64,000 nucleotides of DNA from Comamonas sp. B21-038 (GTDB lineage: Bacteria; Pseudomonadota; Gammaproteobacteria; Burkholderiales; Burkholderiaceae_C): contig NZ_CP092462.1 in NCBI RefSeq assembly GCF_022387135.1, positions 4,712,001 through 4,776,000 of the forward strand. Reading direction: 5' to 3'. The notes beneath the pieces are model-generated. The model searched no databases and had not been told where the DNA came from. It saw only the letters and a list, made by a program, of their open reading frames with translations. The translations under genes and the position numbers were made by a program. Position 1 is the stretch's first letter. Each line of letters opens with the position of its first letter. Shown here piece after piece: positions 4,304 through 9,605 of the stretch.

Positions 4304-6256
4304 ATGACCGAGATCCAGAACTCAGACCGTGCCTTCAGCCGTTTTCGGCTGCGGGTGGTCGTCATCGGTCTGGTGGTCGTGCTGTGCTTCGGCATTCTGC
4401 TGTCACGCCTGTATGTGCTGCAGATCGAGCGCCATGATGACCTGCTGGCGCAGGCCGAGAGCAACCGCACGGCGGTGGTGCCCATCGTGCCCAACCGGGG
4501 CCAGATCTATGACCGCAATGGCGTGTTGCTGGCCACCAACTACTCGGCCTACACCTTGGAGATCACGCCCTACAAGGTGAGCGACGTGGAAGAGACCATC
4601 GATGCGCTGTCCGAGCTGATCGAGATCACGCCGCGTGACCGCCGCCGCTTCAAGCGCCTGCGTGAGGATTCGCGCAACTTCGACTCGCTGCCGATCCGCT
4701 CGCGCCTGACCGACCAGGAAGTGGCCAAGTTTGCCGCCCAGCGCTACCGCTTCCCCGGCGTCGATGTGAAGGCGCGTCTGTTTCGCTCCTACCCGATGGG
4801 GGAGACCGGTGCCCATCTGATCGGCTATATCGGCCGCATCAACCAGCGCGAGAAGGAGCGCATCGACGACTCCGACGAAGCGGCCAACTACCGGGGCACC
4901 GAATACATCGGCAAGACCGGCGTGGAGGCCAGCTACGAGAAGGAACTGCACGGCCACACCGGCGTCGAGCGCATGGAAACGTCGGCCGGCGGCCATGCAG
5001 TGCGCAAGCTCGACAGCTCTCCGGCCACCCCGGGCGAGAGCGTGGTGCTGTCGGTGGACATCAAGCTGCAGAAGATGGTCGAGGACCTGTATGGCGAGCG
5101 CCGGGGCGTGGCCATTGCGATCGACCCGCGCAGCGGCGAGCTGCTGGCCATGGTCAGCAAGCCCACCTTCGACCCCAATATCTTTGTCGAAGGCATTGAC
5201 CAGGAAAGCTGGAAGGCGCTGAACGAATCCATCGACCGGCCCCTGCTCAACCGGGCGATGCGCGGCACCTACCCGACCGGCTCGACCTACAAGCCCTTCA
5301 TGGGACTGGCCGGGCTGGAGACGGGCAAGCGCACCCCGTCGACCATCATCCAGGACGGCGGCAGCTGGACCTTTGGCGGCCACACCTTCCGCTCCGGCCA
5401 TGCGCTGGGCCCTGTCGATCTGAACCGCGCGATCCAGCATTCGAGCAATGTCTATTTCTACACCCTGGCCAATGAAATGGGTGTGGATGCGATCCATGAC
5501 TTCATGAAGCCGCTGGGCTTTGGCCAGATCACCGGTATCGACCTGCCCGGTGAAGTACGTGGCGTGCTGCCCAGCACCACCTGGAAGCGCGAAACCTACA
5601 AGCGTCCCGAGCAAAAGCGCTGGTATGCCGGTGAGACCATCTCGCTGGGCATTGGCCAGGGCTACAACAACTTCACGATTCTGCAGCTGACCCATGCGCT
5701 GGCGACGATCCTGGACAACGGCAACAGCCGGGTGCCGCATGTGGGCCGTTCGCTGATCGACCCGGTGACCGGCGAGCGCCGCCCGATCGAGCAGCCGCCG
5801 CCCGTGAACCTGGGCTACAAGCAAAGCAATATGGATGCAGTCAAGCGCGGCATGGTGTCGGTGGTGACGGGTGGCACCGGGCGCGGTTCCTTTGGCACGG
5901 CCCGCTACACGGCCGGCGGCAAGACCGGCACGGCCCAGGCCATCAGCATTGGCCAGAAGGAAAAGTACAATGCCGCGCGTCTGGCCGAGCGCCAGCGCGA
6001 CCATGCGCTGTACATCGCGTTTGCACCGGCCGAAGACCCGAAGATCGCCGTCGGCGTGATCGTGGAAAACGCTGGCTTTGGCGCCGGCTCGGCTGCTCCG
6101 ATTGCCCGCCGCATCATCGACTACTGGCTGCTGGGTGAATACCCCAGCGAGGCCGATATTGCCGCGATGCAGCGCGGCGATGGCCGTGCGCCGATGGGCA
6201 CGCCAAGGCGCGTCGAAGATATCCAGCTGAAGCCGCAGACCGAGCCACCGCAGTAA
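4304..6256 (+). CDS. mrdA: penicillin-binding protein 2 (peptidoglycan transpeptidase)
   Basis: Class B PBP that cross-links peptidoglycan during lateral growth. The 650-aa protein has one N-terminal membrane anchor (about residues 20-40), a pedestal/dimerisation domain (about 50-220) and a transpeptidase domain. All three catalytic motifs are intact: S327-T-Y-K with the nucleophile serine, S380-S-N, and K540-T-G-T. It is the last gene of the mre cluster. The SEDS partner gene rodA, which often follows mrdA, is not here; a convergent permease gene follows instead. Confidence 0.96.
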   Translation: MTEIQNSDRAFSRFRLRVVVIGLVVVLCFGILLSRLYVLQIERHDDLLAQAESNRTAVVPIVPNRGQIYDRNGVLLATNYSAYTLEITPYKVSDVEETIDALSELIEITPRDRRRFKRLREDSRNFDSLPIRSRLTDQEVAKFAAQRYRFPGVDVKARLFRSYPMGETGAHLIGYIGRINQREKERIDDSDEAANYRGTEYIGKTGVEASYEKELHGHTGVERMETSAGGHAVRKLDSSPATPGESVVLSVDIKLQKMVEDLYGERRGVAIAIDPRSGELLAMVSKPTFDPNIFVEGIDQESWKALNESIDRPLLNRAMRGTYPTGSTYKPFMGLAGLETGKRTPSTIIQDGGSWTFGGHTFRSGHALGPVDLNRAIQHSSNVYFYTLANEMGVDAIHDFMKPLGFGQITGIDLPGEVRGVLPSTTWKRETYKRPEQKRWYAGETISLGIGQGYNNFTILQLTHALATILDNGNSRVPHVGRSLIDPVTGERRPIEQPPPVNLGYKQSNMDAVKRGMVSVVTGGTGRGSFGTARYTAGGKTGTAQAISIGQKEKYNAARLAERQRDHALYIAFAPAEDPKIAVGVIVENAGFGAGSAAPIARRIIDYWLLGEYPSEADIAAMQRGDGRAPMGTPRRVEDIQLKPQTEPPQ

Positions 6257-6380: not shown

Positions 6381-7139
6381 TCAGCGCAAAAAGGCGTCGT
6401 AACCGGTCTTGAGGATCAGCGCCGCCACGACGACGATGAACATGCCGCGCACAAAGCCCGAGCCCTTTTTCAAGGCCATCCAGGTGCCCAGCATGCTGCC
6501 CAGGATGTTGGCAGCGGCCAGCGGAACCGCAAAGTGCCACCAGACATGGCCCTTGGCGGTGAACAGGATCAGCGCTGCCACATTGGTGGCGATGTTCAGG
6601 ATCTTGGCACTGGCCGAAGCGTTCAGAAAGTCGTAGCCCAGCCAGCGCACCATCAAGAACACGAAGAAGCTGCCGGTGCCGGGGCCAAAGAAACCGTCGT
6701 AGAAGCCGATGGTGGCGCCAATCGCGCAGGCCACCCAGGCCTCGGCGCGGCCGCTGTAGCGCGGCGCATGGGTCTGGCCCAGCTGCTTTTTGTACAAGGT
6801 GTAGGCCAGCACGGCGATCAGGATGATCGGCAAGGCCTTGCGCAGCATGCTCGGATCGACCACGGTCACCGCCCAGGCGCCCAGCAGCGAGGCGACAAAA
6901 CCTGCGCCTGCCGCCGGTGCAATGGCTGCCCAGCGCATGTCCACGCGCCTGGCGTACTGGCGCGCCGAGATCAGCGTGCCCCAGACGCCGGCGCTCTTGT
7001 TGGTGCCCAGCAAGGTGGCCGGTGGTGCAGCGGGGAAAGCGCCAAACAGTGCGGGCACCAAAATGAGGCCGCCGCCACCGACGACCGCATCCACAAAGCC
7101 CGCGAACATGGACGCGAGCGTAACGAAGATCCATTCCAT
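6381..7139 (-). CDS. TauE/SafE (TSUP) family membrane permease
   Basis: Probable inner-membrane transporter for sulfite, sulfoacetate or another small organic anion; the substrate cannot be told from the sequence. The 252-aa product has about eight membrane segments and the family's opening FAGFVDAVVGGGGLILVPAL, with a second repeat half around GFYDGFFGPGTGSF. Those two glycine-rich repeats define TauE/SafE proteins. I chose the ATG at 7139; an in-frame TTG at 7163 is possible but lacks a better ribosome-binding site. It is convergent with mrdA and stands alone. Confidence 0.85.
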   Translation of the reverse strand: MEWIFVTLASMFAGFVDAVVGGGGLILVPALFGAFPAAPPATLLGTNKSAGVWGTLISARQYARRVDMRWAAIAPAAGAGFVASLLGAWAVTVVDPSMLRKALPIILIAVLAYTLYKKQLGQTHAPRYSGRAEAWVACAIGATIGFYDGFFGPGTGSFFVFLMVRWLGYDFLNASASAKILNIATNVAALILFTAKGHVWWHFAVPLAAANILGSMLGTWMALKKGSGFVRGMFIVVVAALILKTGYDAFLR

Positions 7140-7304
7140 GGGGCGAGATTGTCGCACCGCCAACGGGGGGCTGGCACCGTACCAGGGCGGCTAAATGCAA
7201 GGCCGCCAACGGAACAGCAGCGGTGTCGGACGGGGCAGGCGCGTGGCCTTGCCGGGTCGCGATGCAAGCCCTGGGACAGAGGAGGGATGGCGCATGGGAC
7301 GCCA

Positions 7305-7432
7305 GAAAAACAAAAGCGCCCGAAGGGCGCTTTGAAGGAGCATCTCGTTTTTATTGATGCCTTATATAAATGTTCGAATTGTTGAGATGTCTCCTCGGTC
7401 CTCTCGCAGAGCACTGTTTCAGTGCCTCGAGT
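7305..7432 (-). ncRNA. candidate small regulatory RNA, about 128 nt
   Basis: No protein is encoded here, but the minus strand forms three consecutive hairpins ending in a classical terminator. Hairpin 1 (7431-7403) starts exactly where transcription should begin and pairs GCACTG with CAGTGC plus CTCG with CGAG. Hairpin 2 pairs GAGGAG-A-CATCTC (7396-7384) with GAGATGCTCCTT (7346-7335). That is 12 pairs, one of them G-U, with a single bulged A, closing a 37-nt A/U-rich loop. Hairpin 3 (7333-7313) is a 9-bp stem followed by TTTTGTTTTT. A TATAGT -10 box (7444-7439) lies 7 nt before hairpin 1. Both arms of hairpin 2 carry SD-like or anti-SD-like sequence. The function is unknown and I do not recognise a named family. 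Confidence 0.55.
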
Positions 7433-7438
7433 GCCTCT

Positions 7439-7467
7439 ACTATAGGCCATCGCACCTGCATGGTGCA
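7439..7467 (-). promoter_or_regulatory. promoter and operator-like dyad for the small RNA candidate
   Basis: The minus-strand -10 is TATAGT (7444-7439). At the -35 position (7467-7462, 17-nt spacer) the hexamer TGCACC is a poor match. Instead a dyad GCACC-TGCAT-GGTGC (7452-7466) sits over it. The form is close to NtrC-type sites (TGCACY-N5-GGTGCA) and suggests a regulator-dependent promoter. A GGTGCA half-site lies at 7497-7502. The factor's identity is inference. Confidence 0.4.
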
Positions 7468-7674
7468 TTGGGATTTACCCCAAAGGTAACTGATTTGGTG
7501 CAGATTGCAGGATGGCGCCACTTTTTGCCCCATTCGTGCGCCCAGCCGCCCCGGAACAGCAAAAAATGAGACAAAACTGCCGTTTCAGCGCCTGTGAACC
7601 GGTCGGTAGCCCCTCAAGGGGACGTGGTCAGCGCAGCAGCGGCCGTAACCGCGCTGAAACTCTGTAGCGCACCA
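7468..7674. other. non-coding region after the GMC oxidoreductase gene
   Basis: I see no gene here. It contains an inverted repeat GTTTCAGCGC (7582-7591) / GCGCTGAAAC (7651-7660), 59 nt apart, and a small CCCC-TCAA-GGGG hairpin (7610-7621). These probably shape the 3' end of the leftward GMC transcript, but there is no U-tract. Confidence 0.35.
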
Positions 7675-9357
7675 TCATGGCCCATGGCTGGCGCGGATCC
7701 ACTCCGAAGCCCGCTCGGCCAGCATCAACGTGGGGGAGTTGGTGTTGCCACTGGTGATGGTGGGCATGGCGCCAGCGTCGACCACCCGCAGGCCGCGCAC
7801 GCCGCGCACGCGCAATTCGCTGTCGAGCACGGCCATTGGGTCGTGGTCCGCACCCATCTTGGTGGTGCCCACCGGGTGGAAGATGGTGGTGGCGATATCG
7901 CCGGCCAGGCGCGCCAGGTCCTCATCGCTCTGGTACTGCGCGCCGGGCTTCCATTCCACCGGCTGGTACTTGGCCAATGCGGGCTGGGCGGCAATGTTGC
8001 GGGTCACGCGCAGGCTGTCGGCTGCCACCTGGCGGTCCTCGGCGGTGGACAGGTAGTTGGGCGCAATCGCAGGGGCGCTGCGAAAGTCTGCGCTCTTGAT
8101 CTGCACGGTGCCACGGCTGGTGGGGTTGAGGTTGCAGACGCTGGCGGTGAAGGCCGGGAAGCTGTGCAGCGGCTGGCCAAAGGCATCGAGCGACAGCGGC
8201 TGCACGTGGTACTGGATGTTGGGATGGGGCTGGGTGGGGCTGCTGCGGGTGAAGGCCCCCAGTTGCGACGGTGCCATGCTCATCGGGCCGCTGCGCTTGA
8301 GCAGGTATTCCAGCCCGATCTGTGCCTTGCCCCACAGGTTGCTGGCCAGCACGTTCAACGTGGGCGCGCCATCGATCTTGAAGACCGAGCGGATCTGCAG
8401 ATGGTCCTGCAGGTTGGCGCCGACGCCGGGCAGGTCATGCTGCACGGCAATGCCATGCTGCTGCAGCAACGCGCCGGGGCCAATGCCCGAGAGCTGCAGG
8501 ATCTGCGGCGAGTTGATGGCGCCCGCGCTCAGCACCACCTCCTTGTCGGCCTTGACGATGGTCATCTCGGTGCCGGTCCAGACCTCCACCCCGGTGCAGG
8601 CGAGCTGGCCGTCGGCCTGGCGCTCCAGCACCAGGCGGCTGACCTGGGCATTGGTCCACATCTCGAAGTTCGAGCGCCCATAGCAGGTGGGCCGCAAAAA
8701 GGCCTTGGCGGTGTTCCAGCGCCAGCCGTTCTTCTGGTTGACCTCGAAGTAACCCACCCCTTCGTTGCTGCCCCGGTTGAAGTCATCGGTGGCGGGGATG
8801 CCGGCCTGCTGGGCCGCCTGCGCAAAGGCATCCAGAATGTCCCAGCGCAGGCGCTGTTTCTCGACCCGCCATTCGCCGGTGCTGCCAGTGCGGCGGTTGC
8901 CATGCCACTGCGCAAAGCTGGGGCTGGTCTCGCCCTCCTGGTCCAGGCGCCAATGGTCTTCATGGCGCTTGAAATAGTTGACCGTGTCGTTCCAGCGCCA
9001 GCGGGCGTCGCCGGTCAGCTCGGCCCACTGGTCGTAGTCGCGGGACTGGCCGCGCATATAGATCATGCCGTTGATGCTGGAGCAGCCGCCCAAGGTCTTG
9101 CCGCGCGGGTAGAGCAGGCTGCGGCCGTTGAGACCGGCATCGGGCTCGGTCTTGTAGAGCCAGTCGGTGCGCGGGTTGCCGATGCAGTACAAATAGCCGA
9201 CGGGGATGTGGATCCAGTGGTAGTCATCGCGCCGGCCCGCCTCGATCAGCAGCACCCGGTTATGGGTCTTGGCACTGAGGCGGTTGCACAGCAGTGCGCC
9301 CGCCGTGCCTCCACCGATGACGATGTAGTCGAAACTTGTGTTGTCTCCAGATTGCAT
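7675..9357 (-). CDS. GMC family FAD-dependent oxidoreductase (choline/alcohol dehydrogenase-like)
   Basis: Flavoenzyme of the glucose-methanol-choline family, oxidising an alcohol group. The 560-aa product has the N-terminal dinucleotide motif VIGGGTAGALLCNRLS, the GMC signature GKTLGGCSSINGMIYMRG, and the C-terminal active-site regions FHPVGTTKMG (catalytic His) and SGNTNSPTLMLAERAS. I placed the start at the ATG at 9357 (MQSGDNTSFDYIV); an upstream in-frame extension to 9474 has no homology. The neighbourhood gives no hint of substrate. Choline dehydrogenase (BetA) is the nearest named relative, but betB and betI are absent, so I give no symbol. Confidence 0.88.
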   Translation of the reverse strand: MQSGDNTSFDYIVIGGGTAGALLCNRLSAKTHNRVLLIEAGRRDDYHWIHIPVGYLYCIGNPRTDWLYKTEPDAGLNGRSLLYPRGKTLGGCSSINGMIYMRGQSRDYDQWAELTGDARWRWNDTVNYFKRHEDHWRLDQEGETSPSFAQWHGNRRTGSTGEWRVEKQRLRWDILDAFAQAAQQAGIPATDDFNRGSNEGVGYFEVNQKNGWRWNTAKAFLRPTCYGRSNFEMWTNAQVSRLVLERQADGQLACTGVEVWTGTEMTIVKADKEVVLSAGAINSPQILQLSGIGPGALLQQHGIAVQHDLPGVGANLQDHLQIRSVFKIDGAPTLNVLASNLWGKAQIGLEYLLKRSGPMSMAPSQLGAFTRSSPTQPHPNIQYHVQPLSLDAFGQPLHSFPAFTASVCNLNPTSRGTVQIKSADFRSAPAIAPNYLSTAEDRQVAADSLRVTRNIAAQPALAKYQPVEWKPGAQYQSDEDLARLAGDIATTIFHPVGTTKMGADHDPMAVLDSELRVRGVRGLRVVDAGAMPTITSGNTNSPTLMLAERASEWIRASHGP

Positions 9358-9605
9358 GTGCGGTCTTCTTATCAGGGGGAGCGCCGGGCGCCCACGGTCC
9401 ATCGAATGAATCGGCAAGTTTGTGGTCAGTATGCCGGGCTTGCCAAGCGGGAAAACCAATGTCCTGTCACCCACCGCGCCTACTGCCGGTCCCTGGCCGC
9501 CAAGCGTGGTGTAGATGCCGCAGTGCTGCGGCTCGGCGATACCTTCCTACAGAGGCACGCGCTGTGATCGCCAGCGCGCAGGGTGCGGCTGGGTAACAGA
9601 CCGGC

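Follow-up and report, generated by a model that had tools for sequence, protein, structure and literature searches.

A conserved small-RNA gene of Comamonas and related genera, and its predicted pairing with RF02278-type small RNAs

AgvB is an anti-sRNA, pairing with another small RNA (sRNA) and lifting repression, and the same role is proposed here for an RNA of about 128 nt encoded on the minus strand at positions 7305-7432 of a 64,000-nt stretch of Comamonas sp. B21-038 (NZ_CP092462.1, positions 4,712,001 to 4,776,000; hereafter the window). SroC, a sponge of GcvB (PMC9973317, available in part), resembles this proposal in that it pairs with another sRNA and lifts repression, but it is mRNA-derived according to the title of a cited work, whereas the window RNA is preceded by a conserved -10 box of its own and by a regulator-like site. 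The proposed partner belongs to Rfam family RF02278 (S17S, bdhR1, ncS27), whose members are, like the window RNA, short intergenic betaproteobacterial sRNAs. They are complements of the window RNA rather than relatives: the 5' end of RF02278 is CU-rich and the window RNA is purine-rich, and the latter matches neither the RF02278 model nor R3, a covariance model of the partner described below.

In Bordetella, S17 is Hfq-dependent, pairs with ribosome-binding sites and is encoded next to coq7; its 5' part is conserved throughout Betaproteobacteria, about 70 candidate targets have matching ribosome-site regions, and overexpression of S17S in E. coli barely slows growth (PMC11722255, available sections). 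Overexpression of ncS27 in Burkholderia cenocepacia slows planktonic growth, and an artificial ncS27 silencing RNA, when expressed in that species, has the inverse growth effect (PMC5688073, available sections); the silencing RNA is a construct, whereas the window RNA is a natural gene. Targets of RF02278 RNAs are expected to be of the AGGAGACA type. The word 'sponge' is absent from the available text of PMC11722255 and PMC5688073, and no sponge of the RF02278 family is named among the literature matches listed. Among the matches listed (titles and abstract starts) there is likewise no paper on the window RNA, and a search with its sequence letters listed none on bacterial sRNAs.

Judged from its sequence and its relatives, the window locus is a conserved, single-copy, stand-alone small-RNA gene of Comamonas and of many genera of its family. 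Its RNA is probably, with appreciable room for doubt, a sponge of RF02278. In the mechanism that we propose, the core GGnCCGAGGAGACA would imitate the ribosome-binding sites covered by RF02278-type RNAs (S17S of Bordetella; ncS27 and other Burkholderia double-hairpin RNAs) and would capture the CU-rich 5' end of the RF02278 RNA in a duplex of 9 bp, which in many species an upstream purine block would extend by pairing with the RF02278 loop. Capture would lower the amount of free RF02278 RNA and thereby relieve its mRNA targets, and a regulator at a GGGnAAnCCC site would set the timing. In the Comamonas clade, a further hairpin (hairpin 2) is predicted to leave hardly any of the core exposed, and pairing would require this hairpin to open. 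It is also quite possible, although we would not count on it, that the gene is a core-genome, separately regulated antagonist of RF02278, such that a site-covering and a site-imitating RNA together switch transporter and catabolic genes, with a dedicated transcription factor at GGGnAAnCCC. A natural antagonist, if this is what the gene encodes, would show how the level of free RF02278 RNA is set and would open the circuit to testing in harmless Comamonas strains. The parts of the RNA, all on the minus strand, are as follows.

7305-7432, minus strand: small-RNA gene, about 128 nt, predicted RNA start near 7432
7403..7431, minus strand: P1, the 5' hairpin, with closure CUCG/CGAG and its first base at 7431
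7400..7405, minus strand: upstream purine block GAGAGG, which complements CCUCUC of the own-genome RF02278 RNA
7388..7396, minus strand: core GAGGAGACA, a ribosome-site look-alike and the exact complement of UGUCUCCUC, the 5' end of RF02278-type RNA
7362..7387, minus strand: linker, A/C-rich across the family, a possible Hfq site
7339..7361, minus strand: P2, a conserved local hairpin, GGCATC/GATGCT in the own RNA, which takes the place of hairpin 2 in the family
7335..7396, minus strand: hairpin 2, GAGGAG-A-CATCTC with GAGATGCTCCTT, a clade-specific alternative fold that hides the core
7305..7333, minus strand: intrinsic terminator, a 9-bp stem (7333-7313) and a U-rich tail, with a terminator in 76 of 76 loci

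The gene is widespread within its family. A covariance model built from 63 loci (R2) matched 40 of 41 genomes of the genus, with one strong match each except in G201, which has two, and 119 of 399 genomes of the family, in 47 of 141 genera (E<=1e-6), nearly always in single copy. An earlier model from 8 sequences (R1) found at least 117 of the 399 family genomes at E<=0.01. Scoring in these large searches was confined to the 12 best candidates of each genome, so that the counts are lower bounds; the models are centred on the core and favour loci that have it. BLAST gave smaller numbers: among 200 family genomes, 13 matched, the own genome included, of which 8 share CCGAGGAGACA and 5 matched by the terminator only, outside the core, and were excluded; within the genus, 22 of 53 genomes matched, 8 of them with the core. 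Of 31 stretches returned by a pattern scan, 26 score at least 38 bits with R1, and the remaining five, which reach 24 bits at most and include Nocardia and an Acidobacteria bin, were taken as chance or unclear. Among 399 genomes drawn from the whole order, 12 belonged to the same family, of which 10 matched strongly, one weakly and one not at all, and relatives outside the family gave weak matches only, of 16.8-23.9 bits; among loci L155-L174, none from outside the family was accepted (L161 belongs to the same family). One of the outside sequences, L160 from another Burkholderiales family, reads AGAGGAGACA near position 1501 on its minus strand, followed by a terminator-like sequence, and may be a distant or convergent analogue.

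A reading made from the window sequence alone had recognised no known family here, and Rfam 15 agrees, giving no match to the window RNA above cut-off. The best match is rnk_pseudo (RF01772), at 18.8 bits against a cut-off of 55 and with an E value of 1.1; it is mainly the terminator that aligns, and the likeness was judged to be chance. A widespread RNA gene family is missing from the Rfam 15 copy searched, and its structure, partner and promoter are all testable.

Comparison of the homologues singles out the core. The loci compared number 76, that is, 77 matched loci after removal of one duplicate copy, less the false match L107. GGAGAC is present in the core of all 76, its flanking letters are nearly invariant, and no other segment of the RNA is as well conserved. 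Over the nine core positions there are seven deviating cells, six of which are A-to-G changes opposite U that keep the pair; in the rare variants GAGACG (L092, L093, L099) and GGGGAGACA (L088, L074, L096), each A-to-G keeps a G-U pair. The core GAGGAGACA looks like a local ribosome-binding site that lacks its start codon. In 464 kb of own-genome sequence (about 9% of the genome), 10 of 36 occurrences of GGAGACA have ATG within 10 nt, compared with a mean of 5.3 of 39 for 40 permuted heptamers. At the loci themselves, a start codon (ATG, GTG or TTG) follows within 16 nt in just 1 of 76, a count that bears out the earlier view that no coding gene explains the unit and on which a short open reading frame was rejected.

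The partner came to light through the weak matches of R2, a model built without knowledge of RF02278. Of 20 weak-match loci inspected, seven lie antisense to an RF02278-like RNA, with TTGTCTCCTCCATCCTCC and a terminator on the antisense strand; five of these were scanned with Rfam, where L174 passes as RF02278 (64.1 bits) and the other four stay below cut-off. The own genome encodes an RF02278 RNA at G000:3,509,543-3,509,605 on the plus strand (L331:9543-9605; 52.2 bits, cut-off 50), between OsmC and threonine dehydratase genes and with COQ7 nearby, as assigned by Pfam; Bordetella S17 likewise adjoins coq7 (PMC11722255, available sections). An RF02278-type pattern with at most one mismatch found 24 loci in 23 of 150 family genomes, all of them sRNA-like by eye except L242. 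The covariance model R3, built from 22 such sequences, finds the partner in at least 272 of 328 family genomes (E<=0.01), the own genome at 2.9e-8. Of the 328 genomes searched for both RNAs, the window RNA was detected in 97, at least 91 of which also have the partner; among the 231 others at least 181 have it (Fisher p 0.0004, uncorrected for phylogeny). The wider spread of the partner would fit a later-born antagonist. The genus g96 (G095, G196, G320) has the window RNA and no partner at E<=0.01, which may reflect loss, divergence or loss in the filter.

Pairing with the active region of an sRNA encoded in the same genome is predicted by several calculations. When the first 24 nt of the partner are matched to the whole window RNA, the best duplex falls on the core in 16 of 16 genomes, at -24 to -31 kcal/mol, and none of 100 shuffles equals it in 14 of the 16 (two do in G042 and one in G105). 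When the two RNAs are folded jointly and may keep internal structure, 8-9 pairs form at the core in each of 32 genomes. The median free-energy difference (ddG) of these joint folds is -8.8, compared with -3.6 when the core and -4.2 when the partner's end is scrambled; mean pairing is weaker after either scrambling in all 32 genomes, while single scrambles match the natural value in some. The 52 partner sequences compared all start with TTGTCTCCTC, and of the 52 cores 46 are exactly GAGGAGACA and four are GGGGAGACA, with G-U in place of A-U. For the own genome, the joint fold shows P2 formed and hairpin 2 opened, with the upstream purine block unused. If only the unpaired letters of the partner are allowed to pair, the site in the window RNA reaches -16.8, a value equalled by two other non-self sites on both strands of the 464 kb.

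Several observations weigh against the sponge reading. The two remaining cores, GAGGAGACT in G023 and TAGGAGACA in G044, each lose one pair. The own-genome ddG of -5.7 is among the weaker ones, because hairpin 2 competes; with 20 scrambles of each kind, two cores and one partner end match it. In G187, 11 of 20 scrambled partner ends match. Once the stem letters of the partner may pair as well, nine other sites in the 464 kb do equally well or better. When each RNA is folded alone, the core's GG is predicted to be largely paired (mean unpaired probability 0.13 and 0.22), with pairing partners that vary between the P1 side, the linker or P2, and the spacer, and in the own RNA GAGGAG is only about 0-0.14 unpaired. 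RF02278 pairing also leaves an invariant CC beside the core unexplained, and the ribosome-site-like letters could owe their conservation to another reason. Six genomes, G025, G095, G134, G191, G196 and G320, have the window RNA without a detected partner.

Co-variation between the two RNAs is modest and varies with the measure used, cognate pairs being only slightly better than swapped ones. None of the p values for this comparison is corrected for phylogeny: RNAduplex gives 0.014 for 51 pairs and 0.041-0.074 with one pair per genus in three draws, or 0.008 for 52 pairs and 0.014-0.044 in five draws once the own pair is added; a helix score, added after the RNAduplex result, gives 0.006 and 0.002-0.005; the energy of the variable block alone gives 0.28-0.39, or 0.08 with one per loop type. 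When all 52 are ranked for the own genome, its cognate core comes 26th and its cognate partner 12th. G008, whose partner sequence is cut by a contig end, was excluded from the pair test.

Other explanations have to be set against the same data. The window RNA might be an ordinary trans-acting Hfq sRNA in which the conserved GGnCCGAGGAGACA serves as a seed for C/U-rich mRNA sites and the fit to RF02278 is incidental. We regard this as unlikely, yet as a serious contender: the RNA is built like a classic Hfq sRNA, and pairing with RF02278 does not require the invariant CC beside the core. What speaks against it is the outcome of the target searches. Of 42 places in 21 genomes with the exact complement TGTCTCCTCGG, the 30 read by eye belonged to the RNA's own gene, lay antisense to ribosome-binding sites or were scattered, and no repeated sense-strand target for the core complement was recognised by eye in these genomes, shorter or interrupted sites not having been searched; a 19-mer with up to three mismatches likewise gave no repeated sense-strand target in six genomes. 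The relation could also run the other way, the window RNA being a target that RF02278 silences or destabilises and that does its own work elsewhere, in P2 or the linker. The duplexes in 16 genomes and the joint folds fit this just as well, and P2 is conserved too; the core, however, is the most conserved segment and nothing else suggests another active part, and we consider the idea improbable.

More improbable still is a decoy that would bind CsrA or the 30S subunit through GGAG. The core does have GGA and an AGGAG resembling a Shine-Dalgarno (SD) sequence, but a single GGA persists in every locus, the first one being absent from L038 and L040, and near-invariance extends through ACA, past the reach of SD pairing. 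CsrA sponges have several GGA motifs that are conserved and sit mostly in hairpin loops; a CsrA sponge was rejected, the one conserved GGA here lying outside any conserved loop. There is very little, finally, to recommend the view that the RNA is a 5' leader or an attenuator for tauE/safE. This gene follows it on the same strand in 52 of the 77 loci, but in all 76 loci examined for one the RNA ends with a terminator. In seven of the 77 the penicillin-binding protein 2-like (PBP2) gene is present and TauE was not found, the PBP2 gene starting 213-281 nt past the core, and the RNA is therefore not a TauE leader; ten further loci have none of four neighbours (tblastn of the window proteins, 1.5-2 kb searched). 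The sponge of RF02278 remains the reading that we prefer.

The sequence-only reading had described the locus as one unit of promoter, 5' hairpin, a larger hairpin and terminator, and much of this stands. All the elements are where it placed them: TATAGT at 7444-7439, hairpin 1 (our P1) from 7431, the terminator at 7333-7313 and a U-rich tail. Promoter, 5' hairpin, core and terminator recur in homologues at similar spacing, beyond chance, and a small-RNA gene of about 128 nt is borne out by its conservation, its single copy, its own -10 box and terminator, and its persistence without tauE. The 128-nt strand has a minimum free energy (MFE) of -43.7 kcal/mol (z -4.7), and none of 200 shuffles is as stable; over the 76 loci the mean fold z is -2.9, with 51 below -2. 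P1 alone has a mean z of -2.1 (34 of 76 below -2), and in most loci its CUC(G)/(C)GAG closure is kept around changing letters.

Hairpin 2 fared less well. Its 12-pair stem with one bulged A and a 37-nt loop (7396-7335) is indeed the fold of lowest predicted energy for the own RNA and those closest to it, but the family as a whole does not conserve it. Compensatory changes in an alignment had been named beforehand as the test of the stems, and hairpin 2 covaries no more than shuffles do (0.132 versus 0.130, 153 of 500), so that it was rejected as a conserved fold. P2 has both-side changes at six of six pairs, in 30 cells, and a covariation of 0.324 versus 0.215 in shuffles (0 of 500), in an alignment that had been fitted to the P2 helix; the compensatory types seen in the raw sequences are CATC/GATG, CGTC/GACG, CACC/GGTG, CGCC/GGCG, TATC/GATA and CTTC/GAAG. 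That alignment (A5) holds 63 of 78 matched loci, near-duplicates being excluded, as was L105, which has no clear P2 and was also left out of the promoter count (n=75). The suggestion that GGAG and CTCC buried in hairpin 2 might pair with ribosome-binding sites survives in half: GGAG is invariant but itself resembles such a site, and the CTCC arm is clade-specific, reading CCCC in two close relatives.

The linker is mostly open, with mean unpaired probabilities largely of 0.65-0.83 from 13 to 33 nt past the A of the core. Between P2 and the terminator lies a pyrimidine-rich spacer (78% C/U) which, together with the U-rich terminator tail, is compatible with Hfq dependence. A conserved masking of the core by this spacer was considered and found unconvincing (complementarity 4.94 versus 4.59 for shuffled spacers, 64 loci).

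Upstream of the RNA and around it lie the following elements and genes.

7439..7444, minus strand: -10 box TATAGT; all 76 loci have TAnRDT 45-64 nt upstream of the core
7452..7466, minus strand: inverted repeat GCACC-ATGCA-GGTGC, seen in the sequence, spanning the -35 region
7470..7480, minus strand: palindromic element GGGTAAATCCC, centre near -43, a candidate regulator site
6381..7163, minus strand: TauE/SafE gene (PF01925, 168 bits), downstream of the RNA and on the same strand; 52 of 77 loci
7675..9474, minus strand: GMC oxidoreductase gene (PF00732/PF05199), upstream of the RNA and on the same strand; 38 of 77 loci
4304..6256, plus strand: PBP2 gene (PF00905/PF03717), convergent; 23 of 77 loci

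The putative -10 box is backed by conservation, its count, like that of the terminator, having been made with a loose pattern. A consensus promoter scan calls no sigma-70 site at the locus, because the -35 is poor. GGGnAAnCCC stands 35 or 36 bp before the start of the -10 box in 59 of 75 loci by a strict pattern, and near-versions are visible in the other 16. The fuller form of the palindrome, GGGWAANYCCYNATG, occurs once in the own genome, at this locus, and one pattern found no further copies of the promoter element there. In relatives, ATGCAC...GTGC over the -35 region is frequent but not universal. An MlaE gene is also among the surrounding genes according to Pfam, and a contig of genome G214 is 98% identical at this locus.
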